Position numbers and translations under genes: made by a program | The notes under the pieces: model-generated | What the model was told of the DNA's origin: nothing | The model's input: only the letters and a program-made list of their open reading frames with translations | Database searches by the model: none | Assembly: GCA_030386875.1 (NCBI GenBank) | Contig: CM059558.1 | Span: 13,395,752 to 13,459,751 of the forward strand | Source: Morinoia aosen | Lineage: Eukaryota; Arthropoda; Malacostraca; Amphipoda; Talitridae | Length of the DNA: 64,000 bases | Direction: 5' to 3' | In this document: positions 17,434 to 40,071 of the stretch, piece by piece | How the letters are laid out: the number at the start of each line of letters is the position of its first letter | How positions within the stretch are numbered: position 1 is the first letter of the stretch

Positions 17434-17577
17434 TCACGGCTGTGAGGGAAGGGGCGGCTGCAGGTCGGTGTCGCAGATATCGGGCCAGCGCAGCCTCACC
17501 AGGTAGGGACCCTTGATGATGTTGGTGCGGTGGGGGTCAAGGGGGTGGTAGGACACCACGTGCCAGTATTGTCGATC
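17434..17577 (-). CDS. MMP exon 15: last hemopexin blade and stop
   Basis: Acceptor ttgttgccag at 17578-17587, phase 0. Encodes residues 1556-1602, beginning DRQYWHVVSYHPLD and including WPDIC, whose Cys1590 should pair with Cys1340 to close the propeller. The protein ends DLQPPLPSQP then TGA, with no membrane helix or GPI signal, which agrees with N-terminal anchoring. Confidence 0.93.
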   Translation of the reverse strand, partial: DRQYWHVVSYHPLDPHRTNIIKGPYLVRLRWPDICDTDLQPPLPSQP

Positions 17578-20500
17578 CTGGCAACAAATTTCTTCAAAAT
17601 GAAACATCTTTTAAATGGAACGCTTTTAAAGTGACTCATTTTTTAAAATTCAAAGTTTTTTTTAATAAAACATATATAAAATAGAAAACCTTTAAACATT
17701 TTAAAAATGGAAAACCCTCAAAGCGAAACATTTTTAAACTGGAAAACCTTCCGAATAGAGCATTTTTAAACTGAAATATTTTATGAACGAAACTTTTTTA
17801 AGTGAAATATTTTTAAAATTGAAAATCCTTAAAATGAGACATTTTCAAATTAAAACATATTAGAAATGGTATATTATTGAGACAAAACATTTTTAGAATG
17901 AAACTTCTTCAAAATGGAACATATAACACTATTTATACACGTAAACTATTATATATATAACACTATTTTAACACGTAAAATTTTCAGGATAGAATATCTT
18001 CAATATGAAATGCCTGTAAACTGAAACATTATGTAAAGTGACTAGTCATGACTACAAACCATCTTAAATTTGAAATGTTTCCAAAATGAAACATGAAACA
18101 TTATGAAAACGTGTAATCTCAACTGAGTGTTTCATTTACCGCAGGGGTTCACATCCTGGGGTACATGAACTCCTAGGTGTAGATTTGCTTATATGAAGGG
18201 ATTCATTTCATCTTAAACACGAAAAAAGAATAATATGACTATATGTTATTTATTTTCATATATATATATCTCACTGAATTTTTTGTCAAATAGAGGGACA
18301 TCCCCATTTGTCTAAATACTGAATGAGTAAATGTTAACGAGAGAAAGGAGAAATAGATTTATACGTTATTAATTTTCAAATACTCATGTATAATTTACAT
18401 ATTTTATTGAATATATTTTTCTAGTAGGGGGACATGCCCATATGTCGAAACATTGAGGGGGTACAAGGTTAAAGAAAAGTTGGGAACTCCTAATCTAGCA
18501 GATCGCTCACTTGGACGATAACCAGCATGATATATCACTGAATAATTTCTTTCAAACAGGGGTTCATGCCCAAATGTCGAAAGACTGAGAGGGGACAAGG
18601 TTAAATTAAAGAAAAGTTGGCAACCCATAATTTAGCAGATCACTCACTTTGACGATAACCAGCACCATATATTACTGAATAATTTATTTCTTCCCAAAAG
18701 GGAGACATGCCCATAAGTCATAATACTGAAGAGGTACAAGGTCAAAGAAAAGTTGGGAGCCCCTAATCTAGCAGATCATTCACCTTGTTTTGGAAATAAA
18801 CGGTTTTTCTTGACGATAACCAGAACCTTATATTTTTTTAAATAGGGGTGCATGCTTATAAGTAGAAACACTGAAGGGGAACTCCTAAGGAAAGTTGTGA
18901 AACCTCACTTTAGCAGCCCATTCACCTTGACGATGACCAGCATCTGGTGGTGATAGGAGTAGTAGACTGCGTCCAGCCTGGCCGGGAGAGGTTGGGTTGT
19001 AGGGTCGGCAGGTCGGAACTCGTCGCTCAGGAGACGAGGGTAGCCGGGCAAACAACAGCCTGTCTTGCCGGCACTCACATTGTAGCCAAATACCTGCACA
19101 TTTCAGATTGATTTCAATGAGTATTATAGCCAAACATCTACACATTTCCGAGTGGTTTCAATGAGTATTATAGCCAAACATCTGCACGTTTGCAACGGGT
19201 TTCAATGAGTTTTGCTGTATAGGAGCTTCTCATAAATGTATTTGATTACTTCAATCAGGCACGTATGCGAAATACGTCCGTATACATTGTATAGGTAACT
19301 TGAAGTGAGTTGACAAAATGTTTTTGGGTGTGAACAGCTATCTCATAAATTGTTGATTGAATTAAATTGTATAATCGCAATTCTGCTCCTTATGCAAAAA
19401 TATTACAATCCTGGCAGACTGCAGAAAAGGTTTATTCATTGTTTGGTCATATATCCTCTAGCACGGGCAAGGAATTTATCGACTGAAGTGTCCAACGTCA
19501 TATGAGATTTCTTCGACTTGAGTCTTGTTCCATGACTGCCTCGTAATCATTCAGAAGATTTCCGAAACAAATACATGCTTCACTAAATCTCTCACATTCC
19601 TATCTAGTACACCATTTTACACATTCACATACTATATGACAAACAATTAAGTTTACTACATGACATAAAAATTTTTTGATGGAATAGTTTCAAGTTTGAG
19701 AAAATTACGATTTTACCAAATTGTTCTTGAAGACGTATAGGTTCTCATCTCTTTTGTCGAAGAACGCAGCGTCGATATTGATAGGAAGGTGCTTCAAATG
19801 CCGCTTTTTCTTCCGTGACCGCCTGGCGTCCCGAGGAGACCGCCGACGGTGGGAAACATGGCGGCCAACTTTAGGGGATCTGAAATCGTGGGCAATTCTT
19901 CTTGGATATCCTTCCATAATTTTCTCGTGAACAGGGTCGTAAGCGTAGTAGAGCGCTCCTGAGGGTGAAATAAAAATTAAATGACGATCCCGGCCTGCGC
20001 AAATGGGGAAAATGTGTTTCTGTACGAGTAGCACCATAGGCACAATTGATTTGTCCAACTTATCTATACGCTGCAATGACATCAAACACAGCTCATTTTC
20101 CAATCCATTACGAAAAATGAAAGAAAAGAAAGAAAAACTGTCTTTCAAAAAAAGGTTGATGCATGAAATGCACGACTTCAATGTGAATTTTAAATATTTC
20201 TTAGTACAAAGGTCAAAAATTGATCGTCATTTCCGCAGGAATGGATTTGGGACATAAGACAAATATCCCCTCTTGTCCTCCAGTTGTTCCAATAAAAATG
20301 AATTCACAAGCGACCTGAAATCAAACGTAAAAATGAAATGTAGAACATTATCGAGACAGTAGAAAAATATCCGGGTATGGCAGAAAATAAAAAAATTCGC
20401 CCTCAATGCATTTTTCATTAAACGCCCTTAATACATTTTGATCAACTCCTCTCAGAATATATTTCCTAAGGAAACTGTTTTCGGTGGAGCGTCTGAAGGT

Positions 20501-23500
20501 TTCGGTGGTTTGAAAAACTCTACATTAAAATAAAAATTCTGGTTGAATTTTTTCAGCAAAATTCAACATAATCAGTTATCTTAGAGAAAGACACATTGTC
20601 GTCCTTTAATCACTTGATGGAAAAAACGTTCCTAGGAAATTCCGAAAGGTACCCGTAATTGCTTTTTTTCGAACAAGCAAAAAGTATGAGACAATCAAAT
20701 ATACACCTATTTGGTTTCCCTTGTTTCAGAAACCCTTAAATTTTGGTGCAACAACATTCACCTGTGAAGAAAAGTTTGATGTCAGATTGTGGCGACCAGA
20801 TATAAACAGTGCACTTTTTTCGAACAAGCGGGAAGTATGAGAAAATCAAATGGACACCAATAAACTTTTCTATTACCACAGTTTTAGTAATTATTTAAAT
20901 TTTTTATTACAATATTCACCTTTGAAGAAAAGTTTGATGTCAGATTGAGGCGTCCAGATGTGGACGGCGGCATCTAGCGAATCTGGCAACCCTGCCCAGC
21001 CTGCTCGCGTCAGCACAGGGTCTCCGGGCCGACATCGGTGGCGGCTGCTCAAGGGTGGATTTTGAACTCGTTAACCGCCATGGGTTTATGCACACTTCGA
21101 CCGCAACGTGCGCTACCGGTGGCCACGGAGGTGATTTTCATAATGCTTTAGAATGATCAGGAGTAGTAAGCTCAATTTTCGTAAATAAAATATTAAAGCT
21201 AAATGATGAATGATCCATTAAATGTTTTCTATTTCTCAGAATTGCAAGCCACAATTAATTTCAAATTTCAGTGAAATATTGAACTTTAGAGTAACTAATT
21301 GTGGTCTAAGTGTTAAACTAAATTTCAATACTCGACTCAAATTTAATATCAATTGTAGTAAACAATTTTTAAAACAGCAAACATGAGCTGGGTCGTGCTT
21401 TCACTTAGTTTTGATTGAGTGAGAAGTGAGTTTGTGACTGGTTGTCGGTCAGCAGCATTATGAAAATTCCCTCCGTGTACCACCGGTGGTTCACATGGCG
21501 GTTAATTTTCCAAGATGTGGCGGCCTTAATTCTCCTGAATCGACCACGCTCTGAAGAGTACTAAGCAGCCCTGCAGTATCCTTTGGCAAGTTACGTGGCT
21601 AAGCCAAATCAGAAGAACTAACGCTGTCAGATGTGCTGCAACGAAAATTTGTTAAATTATTGATCGCGTCATTGTAAAAATCGGGTTGCAGAAATAATTT
21701 TTCAGCTTCTTAACCTAAGTGAGGGGAGTGAGGGGAGAGGAAGCTCAGTGAATAGAAGAGTTCCTCTCTTGGCTCCCCAATCTGTTATCTCCGTTTGCAA
21801 TTATCACCAAAGTGCTGCGGTCTGGTGAAAACGTCGCGGGTGCCGAACTGGGATCGATATAGGGTCTTCTACATCGTTTGAAGTCTAATGCTCAACCATC
21901 CGCGGTGGTTGCCGGTGGTTGTAATAATGGTAGGATGAGTACACAAATGCTGATGATAGACAGTTGAAGAAACAGGATAGCTTAGCAGTTGAGCTTCAGA
22001 AGATTTCAGTTATTCGATTTTCAAAGAATTCTATTCGAAGTTATGTCGCCACTCAGTAGAACAGAGTTATACCGTTATTCAGTCGTGTATTTACATTAAA
22101 GTTTTGTTTGTTTCACCCTCCGTGTCACCTGTTATCGTACGTCCAGTAGTGGTCGCCACTCACCTGTTGTCGTACATCCAGTAATGGTCGCCTCGAAAGA
22201 AAAATGTAGTGTAGACAAATGATTCTTCATTCTTTCTTGTGACAAGATCAAAAATTGTGTTGAACCTGCAAAAGAGAGGCGTAAATCAGCGGTTTATTCA
22301 ATATCTCGCGATTAAATTGTTTTGCCGTACTTGCCTTTTGTTATGTAGCCTGTTTGTGCATCTACTTGCAAGTGGCATCTTCAGCGTAGAGCAGCTCTCA
22401 CGCTAAATTCAGGTGTAGGTATATTACAAAAATGTAATCCACTTGAGACAAGATTGGTTTTCCGTATGAGACCGTGAACCCTTAAATTAAAAACATTTTT
22501 CACAATTCGACTCACAGGTTCGAGAGAGGCTGTTACAGCAAAGGAAGCATTGGATCAATAATTAAATTGTGTTCTGAAAAGACTTCATCCAGTTTTAAGG
22601 CCGAAATTCAATTCTTTGTGTCTCACTCAGGTTCAAGTTCAACGAATGAACAACCGAAAAAAAAACAATGAAGAAAAAGAAAGAAAAAAGAAAAACAGTT
22701 TATTTTCAATGAAATTCAATCATGAAATGTTGGACATTGGTTTTAAAAAATATCTTAATTTTCGCATCATTACATATTGGTATCGTAATACCCATGTAAA
22801 ATGTCGAAAAAAAAAAGATTGACAGAAAAGCACAAGAAAAATGAGTTCTCTTCGTTATGTAGTCTGATTTTGGTAGTGCATTCAAATATAAGTAACTAAG
22901 AAGACAGTCCTCGTGACGCTTATCTGGAAAATATTTTGTTAGCGCGTACTTATTTTGAAATAAAAAATTCTATTTCCAACAGAGAACATGCAGGAAATGT
23001 CTTACAATAATGAGATTAAAAATGCCTTAAAGTAAAGGTCCCAAATTCTTGAACACATTTTAATAGGTTTCGCAATAGCCGCTTCAACGGCTGTTTAGGC
23101 CAAAATGAGACGAAACATCCAATGTGGTCCTTGGTTAGTTAACTCTAAATTTGAAAAGACACAAACAGAAGTAGCACAAACATTTGACTGGCCACATAAA
23201 CATTCACATGCTCAGCCTCGCACCCCTAAGAAAGAAAAAGGAAAAACAATTTGTTTCCAACAAGGATGATAAAACCCTTCATTGGTTTTTGAATTGCCTT
23301 ACCATAAAGATCTTTAGTTGAAAAACTTATGGTTAAAGAACGCCTGCTTGTCCTCACGAAGACAAACGCTTGTCTTCTCAAAGACAAACACTGGGCCCCA
23401 CCAACACCAACATGCCCCACCAACACCAACACGCCCCACCAACACCAACACGCCCCACCAACACCAACACTAGGCCACACCAACACCAACACGCCCCACC

Positions 23501-26500
23501 AACACCAACACGCCCCACCAACACCAACACGCCCCACCAACACCAACACTAGGCCACACCAACACCCACCTGCCGCTGCAGTGCCCATATATGGCCTGCA
23601 CAAGCCGCCGGTCCTCATCGTCCAGCTCCAGTTCGTTGCCCCAGGTCTGGGGGATGAAATGTCACTGAGGCGCACACTTGGGGAGGACAGGTAATTGTGA
23701 ATTGTTTTCCCGAAATTGGCATCCCAATTTTCTGTAAAACACATAAATTTTTGGATTTATCTATCCGACTCGCGCGCCGTCATAACACATAAGTTCACCC
23801 ACTTGTAACTTTCGAAATAATGAACCTATCGATTTAAAATTACTCTCAAACAAAAGATTGTTTTAATCTATCGTTTCAATTACAATTTTAAGTCGATAGG
23901 TGCATTATTTTGAGAGTTACAAGTGAGTGAACGTTTGTGTTGCATTAGTGGCAGGGATAATCTGGAACTTGAACTTGAAGTTGAGGGCCGACAGTGTCGG
24001 AGCCTTTGTGACGGCCTACAATTCCCTTCTCAATACTTACAAAAATCCCACAAAAGAGTTCAGCGCCTGTGTATCAGACTTGTCCAACAAACTACTCAGG
24101 GTCCACCAATCCTTGTCACAAGCTGCCATTGGACAGCATCACTGGGATAACCGGTACGTCAAAATACCATCCCCAGGGAAAAGATCCAAACAAGATCCAA
24201 ACAAGCTCACCTGGCTGTAAATGGCGTACATAACGGAGGCATTCCGCTGCACGTGGCGCAGGCCCAGCACGTGGCCGATCTCATGTACAGCCACCTGCCG
24301 ATATGTCCAGCTGGTAGTGTGCACTTGCAACTTAAAGAGGACTTTGAAAGTTAGCTTCGACTTTAGAAGTCCGTGGAAGCTCTTAAACTTAGTGTGGGTT
24401 TCGAAAGTTATAGTGAGTTTTGAAATTTAGAGCGAACTTTGAAAGTTGGTGTGGACTTCGAAAGTAAGTGTGAGACTTTGGAAGTTAGTGTAAGCTCTGA
24501 AACTCAGCATGGGTTTTGAAAGTTAGAGTCTGTTTTGAAAGTGAGCGTGGGTCTTAAAATTTAATATAGATTTTTAAGCTATTGTGGACTTTTAAAGTTA
24601 GTGTAACTTTGAAAGTTAGTTTGGACTTTTACAGTTTATGTGAACTTTAGAAGTTGGCGTTTATTTTGAAAGTAAACGGGCTTCGAAAGTAAGTGCAGAC
24701 CTTTGAAGTTGGTGTGAAGTTAGAAAGTTAGTTTGGACTTTGAACCCTGGGCCCGAAGATGAGGTGTAAGGTAAGCCCCGGCACCTTCTGATGAAAGAAA
24801 TAACTAAAGCTACTCTAATGCAACATAAATCAGCTGTGTTTCATGTTCAGGAGAGAAACGGTGACACCGTGAATGAATGTTTAAGTGAACTTTCAAAGTT
24901 AGCTTGGACTTTAGAAGTTAGTGTAAGCTCTCTGCAAACTTAGTAAGGGTTTTGGAAGTTAGCGTTGACAAATCACTACGATTTAGAGCAGGGTTTCTCA
25001 ACCGGGGGTACATGTACCCCTAGGCCTACATTTAACATACTTTATATGTTAAAATATACAATATATATACATACATACAACCGTATAAATATATATAATA
25101 ATTAATCATTGTGTGTATTTTTAGTTTCTTAAACCTTTAACTGTGATGGGGGCACATGAAGATATACCATCAAACTAAGGGGGTACACGACAATAGAAAG
25201 GTTGAGAAGCCCTGATCTAGAGAGAGCATAGAAAGCATTTCTATTAGTTGCGCTTCAGTAACAATCGTGTCACACAAATATTTTCTCAAATGATATGCCA
25301 AAAACACGTCGATAATTTTTGCGCTTGGTTTTTAAAGCAAATGATGGTGTCCGATTGGAAACATGAACTAAATACGCTAAGAAAATGCTAAGCTGGTTGC
25401 TTTGAGAATCCAAATGCCAGTGTTGGGCGTTATGCTGAGTTTGGCATCTGAAAAATCCCTATGTCAACGTCTGACACTATACATGTATGCTGAACTTGGT
25501 ACATACAGTATCCCTTTGTCAACGTCGGACTCTACAGTATACGTACTAAAGTTGATATCTGAAGAATACCCGAGCTAACGTATGACACTATACTGAGCTT
25601 AGTACCTGCAGTACGCCATTTCTAGCATCAGGCACTATACTGACTTAATATCAGGAGATACTCCTCGCTAACATGGAGCACTATACTCAACTTGGTCCCT
25701 GCAACATCCCTATGCCAACATCAGGCAATACAATGAACTTAATTTGGAGAGAACGGTATTTACTGCAATAGATTACACAGAACTTTATACCTGCAGTATC
25801 CCAGAGCCCGCTTCATGGCACTACACTGAAGTTGATATTTACAGTATCCCATTGCTACGCTCGTGTACCATACTGAACTTGATATCTGGAGACATCGGCA
25901 TTATACTGAACATGATATTGCCTAATTAATGATTAGGTAATATCATGAGATACTCCCTAATTAATGTGGTACACTGCACTGAACATAGTACCTGCAGTAT
26001 GTCAGTATCAACATCTTGCAAGATGCCTATAGTTGAAATGGTACACTACACTGCACGCAGTACCTGCAGTATGCCGGTGCTCACATCAGGCACTACACTG
26101 CACGCAGTACCTGCAGCATACCAGTGCCCACATCAGGCCCTACACTGCACGCAGTACCTGCAGTATACCAGTGCTCACATCAGGCACTACACTGCACGCA
26201 GTACCTGCAGTATACCAGTGCCCACATCAGGCACTATACTGCACGCAGTACCTGCAGTATACCAGTGCCGACATCAGGCCCTACACTGCACGCAGTACCT
26301 GCAGTATACCAGTGCCCACATCAGGCACTATACTGCACGCAGTACCTGCAGTATACCAGTGCCGACATCAGGCCCTATATCTATAACTTATGTGGCACAC
26401 TACACTGCACTCTGTACCTGCAGTATACCAGTGCCCACATCAGGCACTATACTGAGGGGGTCGTCATCATCGAGGTGGATCTGGGCATGCGCTGGGAGGT

Positions 26501-29500
26501 GCAGAGCGTGACCCAGCTCCCCGCCTGCCCCGTCGAACGCTGTGCTGCAGCCCAGGTGCGAACCTGGACACCGTGAAGCGGCCCATAGACGATCAATTTT
26601 ATTGTCAATATAATTGAAAATGATGAATATTGACAATTTAATTGATCGCCTGTGGTCTTGATTGACGACCGTCAATTAATTGACTTAGTGGGCGAAAAAA
26701 AATTCATCAATATATTGAGTCAATGATATTGACAATTAAATTCATCGTCTATGGGCCGCTTAAGGCTTTGCTCACTCGTATTCTAAGACTGGTTGGTACT
26801 CGAGTTGAGTAGCATATTTATAATTTTGTAAATCACCTTCTAAGTTTAGTTAATATTCGAGTTATGTAACATATATATAAATTTTTATTTAAAATATCTT
26901 CTAAGTTTAGTTGGTATTCGAGGTGTGTAGCGTATTTACAATTATCTAAATTATGTAAGCAATCGTTTAAACAATACAAACAATTAACAGCACATATCTC
27001 TACCCAATATCTGCACAATAACCGATATCTACACAATATCGACAACACTATTGCTCCAATTAGGTGCAGCTCTAGCGTACTATTGCCCACCAATTGGGTG
27101 CAATGTCGCGTACTATTGTGCTCGAATGGGTACAACATTGTGTTCCAACTGAGTGCAATATAATAAGGGAAAAATCTACTGACGTGCCCCAAAGCCGATA
27201 AAAACGTCCACCGCAGCCGCAGAAGAGCTGAGGTCCTCTACGAAGTAGCAGGGGATGACTTCAGACCAGATCCTGAAGGCGAGGGTGAAGGCGGCCCTGC
27301 TGAGGGTTGCCCCCATGTGGGTGCTGTGCAGGCCTCTGCCCACCCGCCAGCTCACCACTTTCTGCTCACAAACACCGTAGAACAAACAAGGTAGCATCAA
27401 ATCAGTCTGTTTTTCGTCGACCGTGTAGCAATGGTGACGTCATGGCATTGAACCAATAGCAGCGCTCATATTGCATTTGGCAACACTGCTAGCCTCAAAT
27501 CTGACACCGCTTTTGGTCTAATTTAACGACATGTCGTAATGGTGACGTCAAGGCATCGCACCAATAGCAGCGCTTCAAATAGCTGCTAGCCTGGCACCAC
27601 TATTGGTCTAACGACATGTCGCAACAGTGACGTCAAGGATCGAACCAATAGCGCCTCTCAGATTGCATCTGGCAACATAATTTACAGGTGCAGGAATGGT
27701 AACTGCGTCCACAGCTGCTTACGTTCCTCATTGGCTGCCCCTGGAGAGTGAAGACGGACCGTTTGGCTCGCCCCCCAGCAGGCAGCACAGGCCCGTGGCG
27801 GGGCTTGATGCGGCGGTGTCTGAGCCGCGCCCCCACCAGGAGGTTTGGGCGAGGGTCTTTTTCTCTGCGCAGCCGCTCCGCCGCCGCCACAACCCACTGG
27901 CGACGGTGGCTCACTCGGTCCTGATGGGCGGGCAAATCAGACATGTATTTTTTTTAACTGATCTTCTGTTGGTTCAAAGACTGTAAGTGAGCATAGACTG
28001 GTCTTTTATTGGTTCAGAGACTGCATGTCAGTCAATCCTGTTGGGCAAACCAGGCATGAGTTTCTTTTGAACTGGTCTTCTGTTGGTTCAGACTGTAAAT
28101 CAGGCTGTCATGTTAGTAAAACCAGGCATGAGTTTTTTTTGAAATTGGTCTTCTATTTGTTAAGAGACTGCGAATCGGTCAATCCTATTGGTCAATCAAG
28201 ATATGAGCTTCTTTGGCACTGGTCTTTAATTTATTCAGAGACTGCATATTAGACAATACTGTTAGTGAAATCAGATATGAGTTTCTTTATAACTGATCTT
28301 CAATTTCTTCAGAGAACGTAAATAAGAAACCGTAAACTGATCCTGATTATTTTTGCACAGAGTGCCTCCACGACAACTTAGCGCCAGTAAATGAAATATG
28401 CGGTACTTTATATTGGACTGCATTGCATGACTCGGAATTGGGGGTTACAATTTTATATTTTTAGTCAGTTTTGGTAGAGATTTAAAAAAACAAGCACCTT
28501 TCATAGACCCACTATATTTTCATAGACTTATTTTCACATACCTATTTCATAGATGTACTTTCATAGACCTTTTTTCACATACCTATTTTCACAGATCTAT
28601 TTTCAAAACAAAAAAATGCACCTTTCATAGACCAATTTTTATACACTCACCTATTTTCATAGGGCTATTTTTATAGACCATTTTTCAAGGTTCTAAAATT
28701 TAAGGTATCATGTATATAAAAGGTTCTCACAAACTCAAGGTATCATGTATATAGGAGACATCAATATGTTAGCATGCCGCCGAAAATAATAAATACCAGA
28801 AGGATCGTACAGTTGTTAAGGAGTGTCCGATCTCTCAAAATCATTCAATTCCGGCTCTTGAAAAAACACAGATTTTTACTGAAGCTATTTGTGTAGTACG
28901 CCTAGAGACATTTGCGTCAATTTTCTACTGTTTTCTTCCCTTCTCAGGGAAATTATTTCAGGAAGTTATTTTTCATTTTTTGTTTTGACTGATATAAATT
29001 GACTGATTTTGTTTTGACTGAACACACATAGACAATTTTCCTTCACTTGTACGAGGAGACAGCCTGCCTTTTTTATATTAAATTAACAAAAAATCTATCA
29101 ACTATAAAAATACTTTTGACAACAGAGTCAGAGATTAACTGCTGCTCACAAAGCTATAATTACAACACCCAAGGTGCACAGGGAATACCAGATGAACTCG
29201 ACCGAAACCGTTTAAAAAGATTGTCACGTTTCAGGTTTCTTAGAATATCTTAATGACAACATAAGGAGAAATTAGTTATAATACTTTTCAATTCATTCAA
29301 TTTTAGCATTTATAAAACCTTCATTTCAACAAATGTTTCATTCTTGAGTTAGTTATATATTTAATTTTTTAGCTGCGTGCGTCAGAGTGACGTAACAGCG
29401 CGGCTTCACAAAGTGACGTCACCATTTGAGTTTTTTCGTGTCGAGTCTGTTAGATCACCCCACTTCGAAATGATTTCTAACCCAATAATTTTTAACCCAA

Positions 29501-32500
29501 CCATTTTTAACCCAAAAATTTATAACCCAATAAATTTTAATCATCTAATTTTAAGCCCAATAGTTTTTAACCCAACAACATTTAACCAACAATTTTTATC
29601 CCAATGATTTTTAACCCAGTAATTTTTAGGCTATCAATTTTTAACCCAATAATTTAAACCCAACAATTTTCAACCCACAAATAACCCTGAAATAACCCCG
29701 TATCATCACCTTTTGAAGAAGTTTATTTTCTCCCACTCGGAGAAGACGAAAAGCTCGCTCCTTTTCAGAAGTCAATTCGAGAATGTCTGTGGGAGACATT
29801 CGGCAAGACGAAGCTTCCGAATCACACTTCGCACGATGGTAGCCACTTCCAGACTCTCCAGGAACTGACAGAGGAACAATTGCAGGCTGCATTGTCACAG
29901 TATACGTTGCAGGTGTTAGAAAATTGTTACCCTTCGGTCTACTAGTCAAATTATGCGGCAAACTCTCACCCCGGCGATGTAGAATTTCATTTTTACCATA
30001 GTGATCCAGGCACTTTTGTCGCTTCACATCAGCAATGTTTTCAAACGAACAAGGAAGCGCACCCTGCCTCTTGTGATCAGAGTTATAAGCATCTTCGTCG
30101 ACATGAAGCTCTTTATCGCCGTGACTAGCACTGTCGCTGTTTAAGTTGAAAAACAACCGAGTATCGGCGTCACCGTTACGCTCAGTAGTGCCGGATGTAC
30201 GATATCGTAGATTGTCATTCCTTATTCCTGCATGATTTCTTATGTTATCTCTCTGTGAGATCTCGTTAAAATAATCATTGTAGATCCACTCGTTCGATTG
30301 GATGGGAGATATTGCTGAGTGGATGGGAGATATATCTGATTGGACTGGATATATTGCTGATTGGATGGAAGATATTGCTGATTGGACGGGAGATATGGCT
30401 GATTGGAAGGGAGATATGCCTGATTGGACGGGAGATATTGCTGATTGGACAGGAGATATTGCTGATTGGACAGGAGATATTGCTGATTGGCCGGGAGACA
30501 TTGCTGATGGTACGGGAGATATTGCTGGTTGGACAGGAGATATTGGAAGTCTGCCTCTACGAGGAGGTCCAAGAAGTTCCATTAAAATTCTGGATGCGTC
30601 TAGCTGAGATTGTTGGGACCCGCAACAGCGACGGCGATTGTGAGGCACCGCACGCGTACCAAATTCGATAATGCCTTCATTAGGAGCTGCTGGTGACACA
30701 AATGAAGGAAATAAGCGCGGCAACAAATCAAGTTTATGAGATAATGTTTGCGGTAATGAAGATCTTCGATGTGATGAAACGTGTGTAGAAATATTTGGAG
30801 GATTTGACGTGTGTTGTTTGGTTAACCTCATTACCGACATCAGTGGCGGCTTAAATTGTTCTCCCGAGTTCGATGTTGATTTAAGGTTCGATGTAGCGTT
30901 TGTTTGGGCTTGGAGAGCATTATTCCTTGCAAGAATTCTTTGCGTAGCGCTTGATTTTATTTCTACAGGATGCCCATTTCTTTCAGCTGATGACGAAACA
31001 TAACTTTTTCTGAGCATTCGATAATCTCGAAAAACTTGCAATAAAATCTTATTCAGACGGCCTTCTCCAGAGCTGCCGTCCCCAGTATGCCCCAAGCCAG
31101 AGCTGCCTTCCCCAGCAGGCCCCAGGTCCGGATTACCACACCGAGGAGTCCGTAACAGCCTCAACGTCTGGGGGTCCGCACGACCGGACGGAGTGCGTGT
31201 GCTGCCGTACCACGTCTGGCAGGGAGCAAACAACGTTGCCATCACAAACTTAAAACTTTAGATTCGTATTAGCCTACTTTTATAGTTTTATTCGTGAAAA
31301 TATCATGGGAACAAACTTTGCACTGCAATTTTAAGAAAACAGCAATTGATAACTTTAAAATGTATTGTTTATTTTTAGAGAAAAATTCTATTGCCACTTA
31401 TTACATTACTCACTTGGAACAGCAGCAGCCCAGCTCTTATTTTGTCAACGTCACATTCTTGAGCAGCGTTGATTTCAACCGTGCTTTGAAGGACTTTTTG
31501 GCTTCCGCTGGTCACAAATGCTCGCTTTTCATTAAATTCTCCTATCCCAGCAAAATTCTTGGCGCTTCCAAAAGCTACATTTTGCGTTGATGCAATTTTG
31601 TCAGTAGACGACCGTGCGTTTACCGAGGATAGGAAGGAGTCTTGAACCTCTTCCTCTCCTTTTCCCCTCGGTCCCCTCGTGGGGAACCTTAGATATCTCC
31701 CATGCTCCCTCTCCCCATATTTCGTGTCTTCATGAGTGTTTTCGTCACTGTAGTGCGTTTTGCTTAACGTGAAAATACCGGGATCAAATCTGTGTCGACC
31801 CCCTTGCTGAAGCCAGGCAGTATAGCGAGGCATCTTTTTGCTGTCGAGTGCCGTTTCAAGCTCATGCATCTCTGGAGAGCTTGGAAACGAGCCCAGCATT
31901 TTTCTCTGGAATGAAATTCGTTCTGCATTTACACTTATGGCATTTCGTAGTCATAGGAATTAAAGTTTCTTCTTAAATACTTCAACTCGTACAACAGTTT
32001 AAAATCAGCATTTCGTGTTCGTAGAAGTTGAAAGTTTCTTCTGAAATATTTCAATTTGTTCCACATTTCAAGCTCAGCATTTTGTGTTCAGGCAAAAAAA
32101 AAATTTTCTTCTTGAACATACTTCGAAACATCTTTGGGACTCATAAGAAGTCAACTGCATCGAAGAATTACGCACATTTTTAAGCACCATAAAGTTTGTA
32201 CTCGTACTTACTATACCTCAGGCGCGAAATGACAGTTATATTTTTAACAAATTTTAACTTACGCTTCTGCTCGTAGAGAGCCTTGGGAGATGCGTTATCA
32301 GCGGCGGTAAAGTGCCTACACCTGCGTCTGCAGCAGGTGTCTGGTGCAGGTGGGCAGGTGGGTGCAGGTGGTGAGGTGGGTGCAGGTGATGAGGTGGGTG
32401 CAGGAGGTGAGGTGGGTGCAGGTGGTGAGGTGGATGCAGGTGATGAGGTGGGTGCAGGTGGGCAGGTGGGTGCAGGTGGTCAGATATCGAAGACTGCAGA

Positions 32501-35500
32501 GTTAGGCAATTCAAGTAGCCGTACTTTTCCAAGAAGCGCTGCCAAAGAAACAAAATCTTTCATTTTCCACGCAAGTCATGACTATTTTTTTACCTCCTCA
32601 TTCAATGTTCGACTGTGGTAATTAACTCAGATAAATTTTTGCTTGAAATTTTTATTTACACCTACAAAATACACACAATTATAATTTTCATCAAAATTTG
32701 TCCCTGAGCAGAATCATTGCACATCCGCATTGCAGCCTCCAATAATAATTATTACGACAAACTTTAACCATAGGAAACTTACGGACCCCTTGAATCTATC
32801 GTTCATTTTTGTTGTCATATTTGGTTGACATGCTTGGCAGCTCGAATTATAAATTGATCAAATTTTACGAAGAAAACGGGAAGTGAAACATCGGAATAGG
32901 GAAGTAGATAATCTCATCACAATCTTCATTTTTTTTTGTGTGTCGAACTTCAGAAATCCAAAGATCCAAACATACTCTTTATGTTGTAGCTAAAAAGTTT
33001 GGCCTTTTGAAACATATTCTTGCACTTTTAAATTCAAATCACAGAACTTTGGCAGAACGGGAGAAATTCTTGAAAGATTGTGATTTGTTTGCTAATCAGA
33101 GGTTAATATTAGAGACTCTGGTAAAAATTTAAACAAGCCAAAAATAAATCTTCTATGAATTGCGAGATGGCATGCACGTTCAGGCGAAACTTAAACAGCT
33201 AATTTTGCATTTATTTGTGTCTACGTTATTTTCTAGCTAGAGAAATGCGTTGTCTATGAATTAATCCATCAAAAAGAGACTCCCTGTTTCACTAAATAAA
33301 TATAACTCTAGTATTGTATCAAGGGTAAACCCCTAATAAATGCCGTAACAGTCACTCATTTGAAAAAAACACACACTTGTCTGCCACGGTATGCATAAGT
33401 AGCTTGGTTTGCATATTATATAATCAAGGTGAATAGTTGACGCCTGGGTTCCATTATTATAATTTTCTCCAATTTCGGTCCGTCAGATACAGGCTTTGCT
33501 GTACTCAATCCCAATATTTCACTGGACGGCACAGTAGTCTTCGTAGGCACTGCTTTACTCAACCCCAGTATTCCAGTGGACGGTACGGTAGTCTTAGTTT
33601 CCGAAAGGCCATCAGGATACGCTGTGTTATCATTTTTTACTTTAGCCAGCACATCAGGACGTCTTTTTAATTAGGAGAATCTTTTAATTAGGAGAATATT
33701 ATATAATACGTTGTACTCCACAGAATCAGGAACTAACTAACCTATGCTCATAAATTTACACGTCGATCACAATTCCCGTAATGAGCATCAATCTTTTCAT
33801 GGACAAACTCGTATTTTGTTGCAGGATTCCAAGCCCAATTGATTTATCATGATTTTAATTTATACGAAATATTCTCCGTGTATTGAGCATTCGTGCACAC
33901 TCGTACGTATCCCAGAGCTCCTTTGGGTGTTGTTGCATTAAAACAAATGACAATATTTCTCAAATACTGGAATTCTGCTCATGTCGAGGAAATTACTGAA
34001 ATTTTCCTTTCCGTAACCTTCATTCGTAAACGCATGAAACTCCACGTACCGTAGCTCGTTAACGTTTGGCTTGAGTTCGAGGTATGGAATTTAGCGCACA
34101 TAGAGGGGAAAATGAGAGATTCCGAGCTAACAGCGAGGTAGGCCTTCTTTTTGCTGAAATAAAATGTTTTTTAATTATGTTCAAGGACCAAATTATTTCG
34201 GTTAACTATTGTCCTGTTTTCCAGCAACCACTACTTTCTTCTTCAACTTTTATCTTGTTTCACGTACTTCTTTCTCAAATTACTATTTCTATGCACCTTG
34301 TGCACATATTCCAAGGTTCCCTATCTTCATATCAAATGGTGCTTCCTCCTTCCTCTCTCTGTAATGCCTTTGTTGCGGTTAGGGAGGTTTGAACTAACAT
34401 CTAATCTAACCATTGAGTGTTAGTTGAGGGCAGTGCTAAACTCACGGCAAGTTGAAGACAATCTTCCAAAGCAGCACCGGAACACAGTGTCTTCACTTGG
34501 TCTGCAACTCTATCGTGGTGCTCAGCTGTGTCCAATTTCGGTCCGTCAGATACAGGCTTTGCTGTACTCAATCCCAATATTTCACTGGACGGCACAGTAG
34601 TCTTCGTAGGCACTGCTTTGCTCAACCCCAGTATTCCAGTGGACGGTACGGTAGTCTTAGTTTCCGAAAGGCCATCAGGATACGATGTGTTATCATTTTT
34701 TACTTTAGCCAGCACATCAGGACGTCTTTTTAAGAGCTCACTCTCTGGGTTGTACGAAGACGCTGTGCTATGCTGTGTTAGTTTGGCTGGGGAACGTTCG
34801 GATTTAATTTCAGCATTAATTTGCGATTTGGTCGCCTGCTCTCGTATCTGCAATGTGTTCGTTGGGTCTTGGCTCGCGGTGTTGGTGGTTGGGACAATTT
34901 TATGCCTGATTTTAAAATTACCCTCAAATATTTCTTGAGGACCTAGACGCGGTTTCATTAACTCTTCATTTTCAGTCATCAAAATTTTATTATCGTTTTC
35001 CATGAGCTGATATGTCTTGCCTCTTCTTTCTTCTGCCTCAGACGGGGAAGTTTTAGCGATTGGGATAAGTGCATTTGTTGACGAGTTCAACTTCGTCGAG
35101 TGTAGTTCATTTTTGGTCAAGTTGAAGGTCCTAAGTGCATTTTGGTTTGGGGCCTGAAGAAGTGTGTCAAACTGCCTCAGAAAATAAGCAATGACGTTCC
35201 ATTTTACGCCAAAGATTTTGTTCTCGGCAAAGAATGACGCTTCTGAATTGTCTAGCGTGCATTTTACTCCGTGGATTTCCGTCTTAGAAAAGTTTGATGC
35301 TTCTGGATTGTCTAGCGTGGATTTTACTCCATGGATTTTGTTTTTGGCAAAATTTGACGTCCCTGGATCGTCCAGCATGGATTTGTCAGGTCGTGGAGAC
35401 AACAAAGTTGTCAGGATGACCAGGACGGTGACGGTAGCGGCAAGCACCAGCGCTGAGACCAAATGGCCGGTGCGGACTGGACGTAGATAGCAAAGAATAA

Positions 35501-35802
35501 AAATAAAAGGATAGAACACATAAAAGGTTAGAATAAATGTCAATAAAAATAAATTTAATTCCGCCGAAAAGTACATAGAAGAAAACTTGTTTATTTCGAT
35601 CTAATTAACTATGTTTAGGCATCGAAAACTTAAAAATCGATTAGGCCTACTGGAAAACGCCTCACATTTACCATATTTTATATATATATATATAAATTTC
35701 TAAAATTTCATTGGTTCTTTCACAAATAAGACATTAGCGCCTTCATTTTAATACATTTTCAAGATTCATCGCTTCAATTTTGCATCAATAACATGGAAGT
35801 GC

Positions 35803-35862
<60 letters not shown>

Positions 35863-36663
35863 TGATTTACTCTTATTCTGTTTTCTCTAACGGCAGCTTT
35901 CCCGAAATCAATCTCAAAATTAAACAACGGAGGCTCGCCGTGCGTGTGCCATATAGCAAAGATTTTTAAACTATTGAAATAATTTATTTACCACAAGCGA
36001 TACAGCAGTAGATTGTTTCTTACGTCTATTGCAATGGACACATTTGAGTGCAGCTACTTGTGGGCCAGAATAAGTTTAGCGACTTCTTGAACATCCTAAC
36101 AGCAACGCTATTCTAAGGTGTACCGTTAGGTTTAGAAGCATTTCTTCTCAAGAATGGCGTACGCGGCAGTGTTTTTTTACAATTTTATTCGTTCTTGTTA
36201 CCTTTCCCGTATTTTTATCGAGATATTTTGAATCACACCACTTGTTTCTGATGGCTTTTTTAGAACTGACCAAGCCATTTTAGCCTTAAAAAATTCTGAA
36301 ATTTGGTTATATTACCTAGTAGCTACTTCCATAGGCGATGTCACCGTCTCTTTATCTTCCACTTCAAAGTAATAGTTCCGGTCGCAAGTACGGACCATTC
36401 TGGAGACGTATACTTTACCGTACTTATAAACTTGTTTCTAGAGTTGAAGAATCATTTCAAGCGTATTATCATATTATTAAAATATCTTATCTTACTGTCA
36501 CAGACTCACTAGATTTGAAATGTCGAAGAAAAATATTAAGGCCATCCGAGTAAAAATTATTTTCGTGAACGAAAAATGTTTTCTTGGTGAACTATACCCT
36601 GCAACGTATAAACTCACCTTTTGTACGAGAATAAAAAGTCGCGGTAAACGTAGGCGATTCCAT
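17434..36663 (-). CDS. Type II membrane matrix metalloproteinase, 15 exons
   Basis: Zinc endopeptidase of the MMP (M10A) family, predicted to be anchored in the plasma membrane by an N-terminal helix with the protease outside. The 15 exons sum to 4809 coding bases, 1602 residues plus stop, and every junction is GT-AG with matching phase. Order: tail 1-19; signal-anchor helix about 20-41; stem to about 359; prodomain beginning RFLEKYGYLN at 360; cysteine switch PRCGNPD (Cys641); furin-type RAKR 1168-1171; catalytic HEIGHVLGLRH 1293-1303 and Met1311; hemopexin domain 1340-1590 closed by cysteines. Usual MMPs have 450-700 residues, so the extra length lies in stem and propeptide. MMP23 is the known type II relative, but it lacks hemopexin blades. 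The join of exons 1-2 to the rest rests on phase and position only. Confidence 0.82.
17590..17935. repeat. Short-period repeat abutting MMP exon 15 acceptor
   Basis: About fifteen degenerate units of 20-25 bases resembling aaaacatttttaaaatgaaa. It begins within 15 bases of the acceptor on the intron side, without copying exon bases. Confidence 0.7.
18130..18925. repeat. Tandem array carrying copies of the MMP exon 14 donor
   Basis: Five diverged units of 115-145 bases, each with a gggga(c/t)atgcccata core. Units ending near 18520, 18655 and 18800 contain a copy of the exon 14 end and donor: minus-strand ctggttatcgtc(c/a)aa then gtgagc or gtgagt, and an interrupted copy ending aag then gtgaat. 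The true junction is at 18926. The core also resembles the hAT-type MITE at 24989-25214, so such an insertion may have seeded the array. Confidence 0.8.
18926..19093 (-). CDS. MMP exon 14: hemopexin blades III-IV
   Basis: 56 codons, phase 0 at both ends (acceptor aaatgtgcag; donor AAG then gtgaat). Encodes residues 1500-1555: VFGYNVSAGK, the blade-connecting GYPRLLSDEF, and blade IV start ARLDAVYYSYHHQMLVIVK. Copies of both of its splice junctions lie in flanking tandem repeats. Confidence 0.92.
19094..19240. repeat. Three-copy repeat carrying copies of the exon 14 acceptor
   Basis: Units of about 49 bases start near 19084, 19132 and 19180. On the minus strand the real junction reads aaatgtgcag then GTATTTGGCTA; the two copies read gtgtag then atgtttggcta and gtgcag then atgtttggcta. 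So acceptor and first exon bases were duplicated together. Confidence 0.85.
19241..19716. other. MMP intron 13
   Basis: AT-rich intron sequence between exons 13 and 14. No further repeat, exon or RNA gene recognised. Confidence 0.6.
19717..19958 (-). CDS. MMP exon 13: hemopexin blades II-III with basic insert
   Basis: Acceptor atttcaccctcag, phase 1; donor TTG then gtaaaa, phase 0 (a weak donor). Encodes residues 1419-1499: GALYYAYDPVHEKIMEGYPR completes blade II and INIDAAFFDKRDENLYVF opens blade III. Between them is a strongly basic stretch (HRRRSPRDARRSRKKKRH) longer than the usual blade linker. It could bind heparan sulfate or be a cleavage site; that is inference. Confidence 0.92.
20660..20965. 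repeat. Two-copy duplication spanning the exon 12 donor
   Basis: About 150-base units at 20665-20813 and 20817-20965. Both contain ttttttcgaacaagc, gtatgaga, then the donor region gaagaaaagtttgatgtcag. The unit at 20920 is the true exon end; the other is an exon-end copy inside intron 12. Confidence 0.82.
20920..21044 (-). CDS. MMP exon 12: hemopexin blade I end and blade II start
   Basis: Acceptor cccttgagcag, phase 2; donor TTCAAAG then gtgaat, phase 1. Encodes residues 1377-1419, including LPDSLDAAVHIWTPQSDIKL, the typical start of a hemopexin blade. Confidence 0.9.
21045..22130. other. MMP intron 11
   Basis: About 1.1 kb without recognised coding sequence. It carries a few phrases such as accggtgg that recur near 57370, pointing to a shared repeat family. 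Confidence 0.45.
22132..22195. repeat. Duplicated end and donor of MMP exon 11
   Basis: The last 27 or so exon bases plus donor occur twice head to tail. The inner donor (gtgagt, exon end 22164) gives the open frame; reading on to the outer copy (gtgaca) would meet TGA at once. The outer copy is therefore a decoy. Confidence 0.85.
22164..22265 (-). CDS. MMP exon 11: hemopexin blade I
   Basis: Acceptor cctctcttttgcag, phase 2; donor CAACAG then gtgagt, phase 2. Encodes FNTIFDLVTRKNEES and then FFFRGDHYWMYDN, a classical blade I end with its RGDHYW signature. Residues 1343-1376. Confidence 0.94.
22266..23390. other. MMP intron 10
   Basis: About 1.1 kb, A-rich in part (22650-22820), without a recognised exon. 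The repeat at its 5' end is listed separately. Confidence 0.5.
23397..23569. repeat. 18-base minisatellite at the MMP exon 10 donor
   Basis: About nine units of accaacaccaacacgcccc, with two aggccac variants. On the minus strand the intron begins gtgggtgttggtgtgg, so the first intron bases belong to the array. Apparent long frames here on both strands (for example a Gly/Val/Cys/Trp-rich one) come from the repeat and are not genes. Confidence 0.88.
23570..23646 (-). CDS. MMP exon 10: end of catalytic domain
   Basis: Acceptor ttcatcccccag, phase 0; donor GGCAG then gtgggt, phase 2. Encodes TWGNELELDDEDRRLVQAIY and GHCSGR (1318-1343). The DDxxxxQxIYG pattern is the last helix of MMP catalytic domains, and Cys1340 opens the hemopexin domain. 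There is no proline-rich hinge, so protease and propeller are almost directly joined. Confidence 0.93.
24211..24323 (-). CDS. MMP exon 9: catalytic zinc site and Met-turn
   Basis: Encodes VAVHEIGHVLGLRH, the HExxHxxGxxH zinc site with catalytic Glu1294, then ASVMYAIY with Met1311 of the Met-turn. Donor AGCCAG then gtgagc, phase 0. The acceptor at 24324 (gttgcaag) is the only one in reach with phase 1, matching exon 8; it has a weak pyrimidine tract, so this 5' edge is less sure. Confidence 0.92.
24325..24970. repeat. Short-period repeat beside the MMP exon 9 acceptor
   Basis: Degenerate 20-24 base units resembling gactttgaaagttagtgtg from 24340 to 24760, resuming at about 24890-24960. It starts within 20 bases of the acceptor. 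Confidence 0.75.
24989..25214. mobile_element. hAT-type MITE with 8-bp target duplication
   Basis: Termini CAGGGTTTCTCAACC and GGTTGAGAAGCCCTG are near-perfect inverted repeats. Flanks are atttagag (24981-24988) and atctagag (25215-25222), an 8-bp duplication with one change. At 226 bp it cannot encode a transposase. Terminal CAG and 8-bp duplication are hAT hallmarks. Confidence 0.85.
25430..26452. repeat. Minisatellite that includes the MMP exon 8 donor
   Basis: Units of about 57 bases, degenerate on the left and nearly uniform from 26045. Each reads cactatactgcacgcagtac, ctgcagtataccagtgcc, then (c/g)acatcaggc. The exon 8 donor lies in the last unit (minus-strand tca then gtatagtgcctgatg); other units keep gca then gtatagtgcctgatg. 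About six close copies of the donor context follow into the intron. Confidence 0.9.
26453..26563 (-). CDS. MMP exon 8: structural metal and calcium sites
   Basis: Acceptor cacggtgtccag, phase 1; donor CCCTCA then gtatag, phase 1. Encodes SHLGCSTAFDGAGGELGHAL and IHLDDDDPL (to residue 1279). FDGxGGxLxHA and HxDDDD match MMP structural zinc and calcium loops. The Asp that normally follows the first His (HGD) is replaced: here HLG followed by an extra Cys. Confidence 0.93.
26575..26763. mobile_element. Palindromic MITE next to the exon 8 acceptor
   Basis: Inverted ends gcggcccatagacgatcaat and attcatcgtctatgggccgc, with AT-rich inner arms, total about 190 bp. It starts 12 bases from the splice acceptor, on the intron side. 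No clear target duplication was seen. Confidence 0.7.
26764..27183. other. MMP intron 7
   Basis: Contains a loose duplication near 26785-26960 (cttctaagtttagtt(a/g)(a/g)tattcgag) and clustered variants of caattgggtgcaa at 27055-27150. No exon recognised. Confidence 0.6.
27184..27361 (-). CDS. MMP exon 7: N-terminal half of catalytic domain
   Basis: Acceptor ggtgtttgtgagcag, phase 0; donor GGGGCAC then gtcagt, phase 1. Encodes KVVSWRVGRGLHSTHMGATL then AAFTLAFRIWSEVIP and DVFIGFGA, matching the MMP pattern AFxxWSxVxPxxF followed by DIxIxFG. Residues 1184-1243. Confidence 0.92.
27425..27680. repeat. Three-copy repeat in MMP intron 6
   Basis: Units of 90-115 bases with gtgacgtca, (t/c)gaaccaatagc and tctggcaacat phrases. 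Copies differ by several substitutions and by length. Confidence 0.75.
27723..27920 (-). CDS. MMP exon 6: furin site and start of mature enzyme
   Basis: 66 codons, phase 0 on both sides (acceptor gcccgcccatcag; donor AGGAAC then gtaagc). It ends GGRAKR then SVFTLQGQPMRN. RAKR (1168-1171) fits the furin consensus R-X-K/R-R and lies where convertase-activated MMPs are cut, just ahead of the catalytic domain. The exon is Arg-rich upstream (RLRHRR is another dibasic cluster). Confidence 0.9.
27921..28330. repeat. Tandem array that includes the MMP exon 6 acceptor
   Basis: Four to five units of 60-80 bases with a core like cctgttgggcaaaccaggcatgag, then actggtctt(c/t) and ggttcagagactg. The first unit, cctgatgggcgggcaaatcagacatg, is the acceptor itself. 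Confidence 0.78.
28331..29709. other. MMP intron 5 with two simple arrays
   Basis: 28500-28690 carries variants of ttttcatagacc; 29465-29690 carries about twelve variants of tttttaacccaataa, close to the exon 5 donor. The rest shows no exon or RNA gene. Confidence 0.6.
29710..31215 (-). CDS. MMP exon 5: cysteine switch and giant propeptide insert
   Basis: 502 codons, phase 0 both sides (acceptor ttgctccctgccag; donor CAAAAG then gtgatg). It opens TWYGSTRTPSGRADPQTLRL then LRTPRCGNPD, the end of a typical MMP prodomain with zinc-binding Cys641. About 475 more residues follow, low in complexity: twelve heptads of the ISPVQSA type at roughly residues 837-920, then polar sequence. No domain is recognised there. 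The open frame over 1.5 kb and flanking exons in phase argue that it is translated. Confidence 0.85.
30296..30552. repeat. 21-base coding minisatellite (ISPVQSA heptads)
   Basis: Twelve units of 21 bases such as gattggacgggagatattgct. The length keeps the MMP frame. Long antisense frames across it are periodicity artefacts. Confidence 0.92.
31414..31905 (-). CDS. MMP exon 4: prodomain middle with long insert
   Basis: 164 codons, phase 0 both sides (acceptor atttcattccag; donor TTCCAA then gtgagt). It ends DKIRAGLLLFQ; with exon 5 this gives the helix-FQ-Y-TG-D-T pattern of MMP prodomains. The first 150 residues (RKMLGSFPSSPEMHELETAL onward) are charged and have no match I know; in other MMPs this loop is 10-20 residues long. 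Confidence 0.87.
32263..32538 (-). CDS. MMP exon 3: prodomain start and HLHPP array
   Basis: 92 codons, phase 0 both sides (acceptor ttgtttctttggcag; donor AGAAGC then gtaagt). Begins RFLEKYGYLNC, the first prodomain helix of MMPs, then about eight HLHPP units, then a short Thr/Ser/Arg tail. Histidine density in the array is high enough to bind metal, which is inference. Confidence 0.87.
32338..32480. repeat. 15-base coding minisatellite (HLHPP)
   Basis: Units such as gtgggtgcaggtggt, about eight to nine copies, in frame in MMP exon 3. Confidence 0.9.
33470..33668 (-). pseudogene. Partial copy of MMP exon 2 inside intron 2
   Basis: About 198 bases nearly identical to 34533-34730 in the same orientation, with only a few substitutions. 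It contains the two-unit TTVPS stem repeat but has no splice acceptor matched to it and loses similarity at both ends. A recent segmental duplication, probably not an exon. Confidence 0.85.
34075..34425 (+). mobile_element. SINE-like element, copy 1
   Basis: Plus-strand copy of a family with four minus-strand copies in ANKS3 introns. It shares gtcctgttttccagcaacc, tatttctatgcacctt and ctttgttgcggttaggga and ends in an aacatctaatctaacc tail. The head is degraded. Confidence 0.7.
34446..35476 (-). CDS. MMP exon 2: signal anchor and stem
   Basis: Acceptor tgctatctacgtccag, phase 1; donor CTTGCC then gtgagt, phase 0. Opens with RTG and the helix HLVSALVLAATVTVLVILTT (about 20-41), followed by three units of about 20 residues (LDDPGTSNFAKNKIHGVKST is the first) and two 18-residue TKTTVPS units. 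It ends ALEDCLQLA; joined to exon 3 this gives a normal lead into the YGYL helix. The frame runs open 5' of the acceptor into transposon sequence, which is not exon. Confidence 0.78.
35560..35673. mobile_element. Truncated copy of the GGTAAAT-type MITE
   Basis: Shares gaagaaaacttgtttatttc, taattaactatgtttaggcatc and the terminal cacatttacc with the elements at 51833-52323 and 62791-63337. Only one end remains. It sits in MMP intron 1 close to exon 2. Confidence 0.7.
35804..35862. repeat. (AT)n microsatellite
   Basis: Uninterrupted alternating AT of nearly 60 bases in MMP intron 1. Confidence 0.97.
36618..36663 (-). CDS. MMP exon 1: cytosolic tail
   Basis: ATG at 36663-36661, reading MESPTFTATFYSRTK, donor ACAAAAG then gtgagt, phase 1, which fits exon 2. 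A possible acceptor (attaaattttag) lies five bases before the ATG, so an untranslated exon may precede it. Small exon; support is the good donor, the phase match and its position ahead of a membrane helix. Confidence 0.62.
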
Positions 36664-39534: not shown

Positions 39535-39915
39535 GATGCCCAGTCCCGGATATGGACTTCTGTTGAAGTATTCTAGTCAAGACAGCAGCGCGCATGGCGT
39601 CCCTTCCAACATCGAACATCACTAGATATTTAAAACACCTCAGATAATAATTATAAATTGTTTTGGTCGTCACCTATAAGGAAGTCTGGTGAAGCAGTCT
39701 AGTTTAGACAGCAGTTCGCATTGCGTCCCTAAAACAGCTCATAAGAAGAATGACAATCAATTGTTTTGGCCAGTCTCCGCTATGGAAGTCTGCTGGAGCT
39801 TCGCATTGCATCTCAAAAACAGCTCAAATGAAGGATAATTATCAATTATTCTGGACAGTCTCCGATATAGAGGTCTGCTGGAGCAGTCTGGTCAGTACAG
39901 CAGCGCGCAAGGCGT
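39535..39915. repeat. Four-copy array including the ANKS3 stop codon
   Basis: Diverged units near 39535, 39655, 39745 and 39830 share cagtctccg(a/c)tat, gaagtctg(c/g)tg and agcagtctag phrases. The last unit is the 3' end of the ANKS3 coding region; the others lie downstream on the minus strand. Confidence 0.75.
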
Positions 39916-40071
39916 CCGCTGCAGAGCCGGGACCAACAGAGGGGTTGTGTTCGTTGCTGGAGGTGAGGCGACTGTCGCCAGAAGAGAACATTTCAGGGGA
40001 CAGGGCAGACGAGGCGGCAGGCGATGTGGTGTCAACGGAAGGATGCGGCTGCTCGAAGTAACTTTTTGGAC
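39842..40071 (-). CDS. ANKS3: ANKS3 exon 9: C-terminus
   Basis: Acceptor gaattccttcttcag, phase 1. Reads GPKSYFEQPHPSVDTTSP through to a C-terminal TSISETVQNN and TGA. Ser/Thr-rich with no domain. The frame differs from the unspliced continuation of exon 8, so the splice matters for the C-terminus. Confidence 0.8.

Follow-up and report, generated by a model that had tools for sequence, protein, structure and literature searches.

Amphipod MMP21 as a predicted signal-anchored zymogen with a 1171-residue propeptide

A stretch of 64,000 nucleotides from the amphipod Morinoia aosen (the window; C3:13395752-13459751 of its own genome, 1.99 Gb in 29 contigs) carries on the minus strand a matrix metalloproteinase (MMP) gene whose single frame joins a hydrophobic N-terminal segment, a giant propeptide, and a catalytic-hemopexin part. 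The locus raises three questions: to which MMP family the gene belongs, whether the N-terminus holds the product in a membrane, and whether the propeptide is made at its predicted length. Judged by homology, the gene is an amphipod MMP21. With a probability of roughly 0.7, its product would be a signal-anchored type II zymogen with a propeptide of 1171 residues, the enzyme being freed by a furin-like cut.

Gene structure

The gene runs from an ATG at 36663 to a stop at 17434 and consists of 15 exons as rebuilt from the sequence. All introns are GT-AG, the phases are consistent, and a single terminal stop closes a product of 1604 residues. The first-pass annotation had joined fifteen exons in phase into one frame with the same outer coordinates, and the anchor-like segment, switch, furin site, zinc site, hemopexin, and huge propeptide that it described are all present in the rebuilt frame; the giant single frame stands, and its length of 1602 residues is corrected to 1604. 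The features are as follows.

36618..36663, minus strand: exon 1, start codon and residues 1-15; putative cytoplasmic flank with R13 and K15; GTGAGT donor
34446..35476, minus strand: exon 2, predicted signal anchor, N-terminal stalk, and beginning of prodomain helix 1
35397..35462, minus strand: predicted signal-anchor segment, residues 21-42; 22 residues without D, E, K, R, N, Q, H, or P
32263..32538, minus strand: exon 3, prodomain helix 1 (RFLEKYGYL, 32512-32538), then His/Pro-rich repeats
31414..31905, minus strand: exon 4, helix 1-2 loop insert, with prodomain helix 2 at its end (~31414-31458)
29710..31215, minus strand: exon 5, helix 3, cysteine switch, and linker of 7-residue repeats
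31126..31146, minus strand: cysteine switch PRCGNPD, residues 639-645
27723..27920, minus strand: exon 6, basic RRxW module and furin site
27759..27770, minus strand: furin-type site RAKR, followed by S; residues 1168-1171
27184..27361, minus strand: exon 7, catalytic domain, part 1
26418..26563, minus strand: exon 8, catalytic domain with the MMP21-specific cysteine (HLGC)
24211..24294, minus strand: exon 9, zinc site HEIGHVLGLRH (24253-24285; residues 1295-1305) and Met-turn
23570..23646, minus strand: exon 10, end of the catalytic domain; hingeless join to hemopexin
22164..22265, minus strand: exon 11, hemopexin, part 1
20920..21044, minus strand: exon 12, hemopexin, part 2
19717..19958, minus strand: exon 13, hemopexin, part 3, with a basic insert (32 residues between the motifs used)
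18926..19093, minus strand: exon 14, hemopexin, part 4 (GCCLPGYP motif)
17434..17577, minus strand: exon 15, hemopexin end (DICD) and stop

In 200 dinucleotide shuffles of the region no open frame is longer than 252 codons, whereas the longest real one has 538, and the catalytic and hemopexin part can be aligned over its whole length with MMP21 proteins; the gene is therefore beyond chance. The frames of exons 2 and 5 are each longer than all 500 local shuffles. An in-frame stop lies five codons upstream of the exon 1 ATG. By our reading of the alignments, homology to other MMP21s covers 12 of the 14 exon junctions (1-2 weakly), among them that of the exon 2 end LQLA with RFLEKYGYL of exon 3, which recurs in other MMP21s; for junctions 3-4 and 5-6 the support consists of splice sites and open frames. 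Helix 2 in exon 4, ECDVDKIRAGLLLFQ, aligns to ICSQGEIEKAIKKFQ of the Portunus row, and the RRxW module of exon 6, SHRRQWVVAAAERLRR, matches Hyalella RSRRRWLVAAAQALRR.

Pfam assigns Peptidase_M10 (E=4.8e-30) and Hemopexin (E=1.9e-20) to the 1604-residue protein, the latter with three separate stretches passing. The four hemopexin blades of the first-pass annotation are thus not backed by four Pfam hits, although the model of the Hyalella homologue supports them by its strand pattern. The basic insert of exon 13 between blades spans 32, 39, and 91 residues in three amphipod rows (Morinoia, P0001, and P0002); its counterpart measures 10-14 residues in five other MMP21 rows, Portunus being unmatched by the pattern. 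A C-terminal transmembrane or glycosylphosphatidylinositol signal, as in C-terminally anchored MT-MMPs, was not found: no 19-residue hydropathy window starting after residue 60 exceeds 1.27.

Several exon edges have duplicated splice-site regions, tandem duplications overlapping the donor edge of exon 11 (22125-22192) and the acceptor edge of exon 14 (19079-19210). A minisatellite in intron 8 (26044-26377; 47 bp, 7.1 copies) derives from the 3' end of exon 8 including its GT donor and yields repeated potential donors; its period is not a multiple of 3. Exon 2 has one full copy in the genome and, in addition, a 203-bp copy of 99% identity in intron 2 (33468-33670), in which no donor is visible by eye and which is either a recent duplication or an assembly artefact. 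Exon 5 was considered as a mobile or repeated element and rejected as such: it has one full copy in 1.99 Gb, and the other six matches cover just its 21-bp repeat part at 67-75%.

Family assignment and copy number

Among the best 120 of 128 matches to the catalytic-hemopexin part, MMP21 of Hyalella azteca ranks first (58% identity, E 6.7e-191), followed by decapods, chelicerates, a priapulid, a myriapod, molluscs, and vertebrates, with other MMPs far lower. In a tree of 31 rows—the Morinoia protein and 30 of 127 fetched proteins, four of them outgroup MMPs and one of these a long branch—it groups with Hyalella at 100/96; the amphipods stand together at 100/100 and inside MMP21 at 100/99. Across 38 MMP21s, 115 columns reach 90% conservation or more; Morinoia keeps 99 of them, compared with 97 in Hyalella and 111 in Oratosquilla; 7 of its 16 departures lie in prodomain stretches gapped or misplaced by the automatic aligner.

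The characters given for MMP21 in PMC2656525 recur in the protein. The switch PRCGXPD is present as PRCGNPD, and the RXKR furin site before the catalytic domain as RAKR, a predicted cleavage site. The insertion between the two measures 531 residues from RCG to the end of the site, and 20-44 residues in vertebrate MMP21 (PMC2656525). The extra catalytic cysteine lies in HLGC, which we read as the cysteine meant in that paper; Cys occupies this position in seven of seven MMP21 rows and in neither of two outgroup rows. The catalytic-hemopexin junction is hingeless in the alignment, as described there.

The first-pass annotation had recognized an MMP but left the gene unplaced within the family, setting it against MMP23. 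A protease of the MMP23 lineage that retained its hemopexin domain would have in common the layout of N-terminal anchor and furin site. The sequence search and the tree, which contained no MMP23 sequence, nonetheless give MMP21, and in place of the Ig-like and cysteine-array domains of the hemopexin-less MMP23, neither of which is among the Pfam matches, hemopexin is present. This origin is very improbable.

No second MMP21 was found in the 1.99-Gb genome, where 15 candidates were scored: of ten MMP21 matches, nine are exons of the present gene (77-98%), and the tenth, on C5, reaches 35%. Other M10 matches lie on C5, C6, C17, and C26; of 14 prokaryote control genomes, 6 are also positive in the M10 family search, which means that such a match does not by itself identify an MMP. 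C5 carries another MMP, possibly a retrocopy: an intronless frame of 745 codons (L001 754-2991) whose product has the switch-like motif FCGVPD, a furin-like site, and a hinge rich in Thr and Pro. Solved structures gave 110 sequence matches; the 60 listed are MMPs (MMP-2, MMP-13, MMP-1, and others), with no structure named MMP21 among them.

Layout of the propeptide

The propeptide accounts for nearly all of the extra length of the protein, and, as judged by the position of the zinc site, is the longest of the 128 proteins compared, many of which are partial. The range of 450-700 residues stated earlier for known MMPs proves too narrow: seven MMP21 gene models have 942-1638 residues, the longest of which includes extra C-terminal receptor domains.

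Growth sits in three zones. A crab MMP21 model gives these zones low confidence, although its prodomain agrees with solved proMMPs. Segment lengths were tabulated for 24 of the 127 proteins and Morinoia MMP21, the furin-site motif of Petrolisthes probably being placed too early. The best explanation is that three unstructured links between prodomain pieces were lengthened, partly by in-frame tandem repeats, while the propeptide retains the ordinary MMP latch—helices 1-3 and PRCGNPD on the zinc—together with the basic RRxW module of MMP21.

Several results speak against this layout. The MMP prodomain PF01471 is not detected at Pfam E <= 0.1, and no Pfam family at that threshold has its best stretch within the first 1184 residues; PF01471 is likewise absent from the precomputed domain annotation of Hyalella and of the majority of decapod rows. 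A search with the propeptide only gave no homologue at E <= 1 among 7989 candidates scored, so its origin is untraceable by sequence. The Hyalella model (P0001) has only 15 residues from helix 1 KYGY to RKCGNGDD (residues 118-140) and no helix 2: either its annotation is incomplete or amphipod prodomains truly differ.

In Foldseek, the Hyalella model ranks full-length proMMP-1 first, with a poor global overlay (TM 0.25 by query, root-mean-square deviation 11.6) and good overlays of single domains.

Probable translation of the inflated exons

Four tandem arrays lie within exons:

35201..35384, minus strand: in-frame 60-bp x3 repeat, stalk, exon 2
32343-32480, minus strand: 18/54-bp array, exon 3
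31067-31124, minus strand: 30-bp x1.9 array, exon 5
30296..30545, minus strand: in-frame 21-bp x12 repeat (SAISPVQ-like units), exon 5

The window holds 50 arrays, the best-scoring one being kept per overlapping cluster. All four exonic periods (60, 54, 30, and 21) are divisible by 3, compared with 1 of 20 in introns or at exon edges (Fisher 0.0005) and 7 of all 46 other arrays (Fisher 0.0014). Such frame-keeping is expected from selection for an open frame; the inflated exons are therefore probably translated.

It is unlikely, though compatible with other readings, that the gene is a real MMP21 in which some of exons 3-5 lie outside the main transcript, so that the usual propeptide is far shorter. 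Several observations pull in this direction and away from the full-length product. Each of exons 3-6 is a multiple of 3 in length and in phase 0, so they can be skipped in frame and shorter isoforms are possible. Junctions 3-4 and 5-6 lack homology, and codon periodicity in exon 4 is weak (chi2 8.0), though it is also weak in the surely coding exon 12 (2.9). The Hyalella model has a propeptide of just 234 residues. Finally, the Eriocheir MMP21 coding sequence was cloned at 951 residues with its zinc domain at 542-705 (PMC11242087), whereas gene model P0125 places the furin site at 763; the cloned propeptide is about 200 residues shorter, and gene models can therefore overstate propeptide length. 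P0125 (Eriocheir sinensis, 1638 residues) also runs on into the receptor-channel domains PF00060 and PF10613 and is probably a fused gene prediction.

Against such shortening, conserved prodomain pieces occur in each of exons 2, 3, 4, and 5, the long open frames beat the shuffles, and the exonic arrays stay in frame. Decapod propeptides, one of them cloned, are long too: models from Panulirus, Eriocheir, and two Penaeus species have propeptides of 740-966 residues. The hagfish MMP21 model has a repeat-filled linker of its own.

The N-terminal segment

Vertebrate MMP21 is secreted, with a cleaved signal peptide. The Morinoia N-terminus was compared with the others in a set of 73 of the 128 proteins, itself included, kept for starting with M and for a helix-1 motif before the switch motif; the 55 dropped include fragments without an N-terminus such as Hirondellea (P0002). 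Some starts among the 73 are doubtful (e.g., P0004, P0020, P0033, P0037, P0092, P0095, and P0122), and P0120 is not an MMP21. The longest run free of charged and strongly polar residues measures 22 in Morinoia and 21 in Hyalella, followed by 18. On a biological insertion scale, the most insertion-prone 21-mer scores -2.75 and -2.66, respectively, followed by -0.03 and then values of at least 1.07. In both amphipods the net charge is +3 before and -1 after the hydrophobic segment, and the Hyalella model is helical at 15-43, with good confidence for ~21-40. With Morinoia and Hyalella apart from the 71 other N-termini on two of three measures, the predicted signal anchor seems genuine and, to date, confined to amphipods.

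The N-termini of the two amphipods align without gaps (residues 11-33 to 11-33), which supports exon 1 and its start. Taken alone, the exon 1 flank matches Hyalella with weak significance, 407 of 5000 shuffles doing as well. When a GTRAG donor is required, there are 18 candidate first exons and exon 1 matches Hyalella best; with any GT allowed there are 741, of which one outscores it and two equal its score. An alternative exon 1 would alter the short N-terminal flank only, because the hydrophobic segment is encoded by exon 2.

Three points count against an anchor. Kyte-Doolittle hydropathy ranks the Morinoia segment fifth of 73 and that of Hyalella second, and thus fails to separate anchors from signal peptides. 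The two measures that do separate them were picked after the sequence had been seen, and the amphipod N-termini compared are only two. An ordinary secreted MMP21, unusual just in propeptide length and with the hydrophobic segment as a long cleavable signal peptide, would agree with the first of these points and with the other complete MMP21 N-termini compared, which in our reading resemble ordinary signal peptides. This is rather unlikely: 22 uncharged residues stand behind a 20-residue basic flank, the Hyalella layout is identical, and the insertion scale shows a clear gap. In addition, the SPRP that follows the segment blocks, by the -3,-1 rule, the simplest signal-peptidase position.

Proposed mechanism

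As a signal-anchored zymogen, the product would enter the endoplasmic reticulum by its uncleaved N-terminal anchor, with the N-terminus inside and the C-terminus in the lumen, giving type II topology. The cysteine switch on the zinc would hold the latch closed. Three R-X-[KR]-R motifs occur in the protein, all at 1133-1171 between anchor and catalytic domain, and a furin-like protease would cut after RAKR1171, freeing a normal-sized catalytic-hemopexin enzyme of 433 residues and leaving the propeptide tethered in the membrane. The anchor would keep the precursor at the membrane, with release dependent on convertase cleavage, as in MMP23. The earlier label of a type II membrane MMP accordingly fits the precursor and not the soluble enzyme: the anchored part would be the zymogen, because furin would release the enzyme.

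More tentatively, and with slightly less than even confidence, the amphipod lineage may have turned MMP21 from a secreted into a membrane-tethered zymogen by a change from signal peptide to signal anchor. In Morinoia, more than 1100 mostly unstructured residues would then form a long tether; convertase cleavage, at the cell surface or in the late secretory pathway, would both activate and release the enzyme, and the anchored propeptide left behind may signal or hold partners.

Neighbouring sequences

Two further features lie in the window:

39892-41649, minus strand: 585-codon open frame upstream of the gene, on the same strand, with an in-frame 21-bp x12 repeat and no Pfam match
5370-8500, plus strand: retroelement with reverse transcriptase, RNase H, and integrase domains over two overlapping frames

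Implications

Few MMP21 substrates are known. The apparent switch from signal peptide to anchor and the propeptide growth in disordered links form a natural experiment on MMP latency under huge insertions, and the size range usually quoted for MMPs is corrected by the Morinoia protein. The best-known context of MMP21 is human laterality disease (dextrocardia, PMC7680847), and its knockdown in a crab alters junction proteins in the testis (PMC11242087); crustacean MMP21, with the cloned crab form, suggests functions that lend themselves to testing away from the laterality organ of vertebrates.

Comparison with known systems

The MMP21-like protein of Hyalella azteca (P0001, 669 residues) features the same signal-anchor layout, RRxW module, and RR/SVFTL cleavage region. 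It differs in its annotated propeptide of 234 residues, the missing helix 2, and RKCGNGDD instead of PRCGNPD. No paper on an amphipod MMP21 or a signal-anchored MMP21 was found in an openly licensed library.

Decapod MMP21s (Penaeus, Panulirus, Procambarus, and Eriocheir, with the cloned es-MMP21 of 951 residues) are enlarged in the same places: stalk, helix 1-2 loop, and post-switch linker. By contrast, their N-termini read to us as signal-peptide-like, their propeptides reach up to 966 residues, and growth is mainly in the stalk. The start of Eriocheir gene model P0125 is, in our reading, also signal-peptide-like, and surface staining therefore needs no anchor.

Vertebrate MMP21 has in common PRCGxPD, RxKR, the insertion between them, the extra catalytic cysteine, and the hingeless junction (PMC2656525), but is shorter, at 578 (pika) to 734 residues (shark) in the tabulated rows and 1093 in hagfish.

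MMP23 resembles the predicted precursor in its N-terminal type II transmembrane segment and furin site (PMC2656525); its Ig-like and cysteine-array domains, which replace hemopexin (PMC6627178), set it apart by description rather than by sequence. The contrast with hemopexin-less MMP23, on which the first-pass annotation relied, is not unique to Morinoia, since echinoderm MMPs (Patiria miniata and Strongylocentrotus purpuratus) are also predicted to combine an N-terminal transmembrane segment with cysteine switch and hemopexin repeats (PMC8467561). The excerpt of that paper mentions neither the MMP21 name nor a giant propeptide, and it warns that N-terminal transmembrane calls in MMPs need several programs.

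Long MMP21 propeptides are thus not unique to Morinoia, being already in databases for other crustaceans. What is new is the signal anchor predicted for amphipods, a propeptide longer than any other compared, and growth in disordered links with the frame kept.
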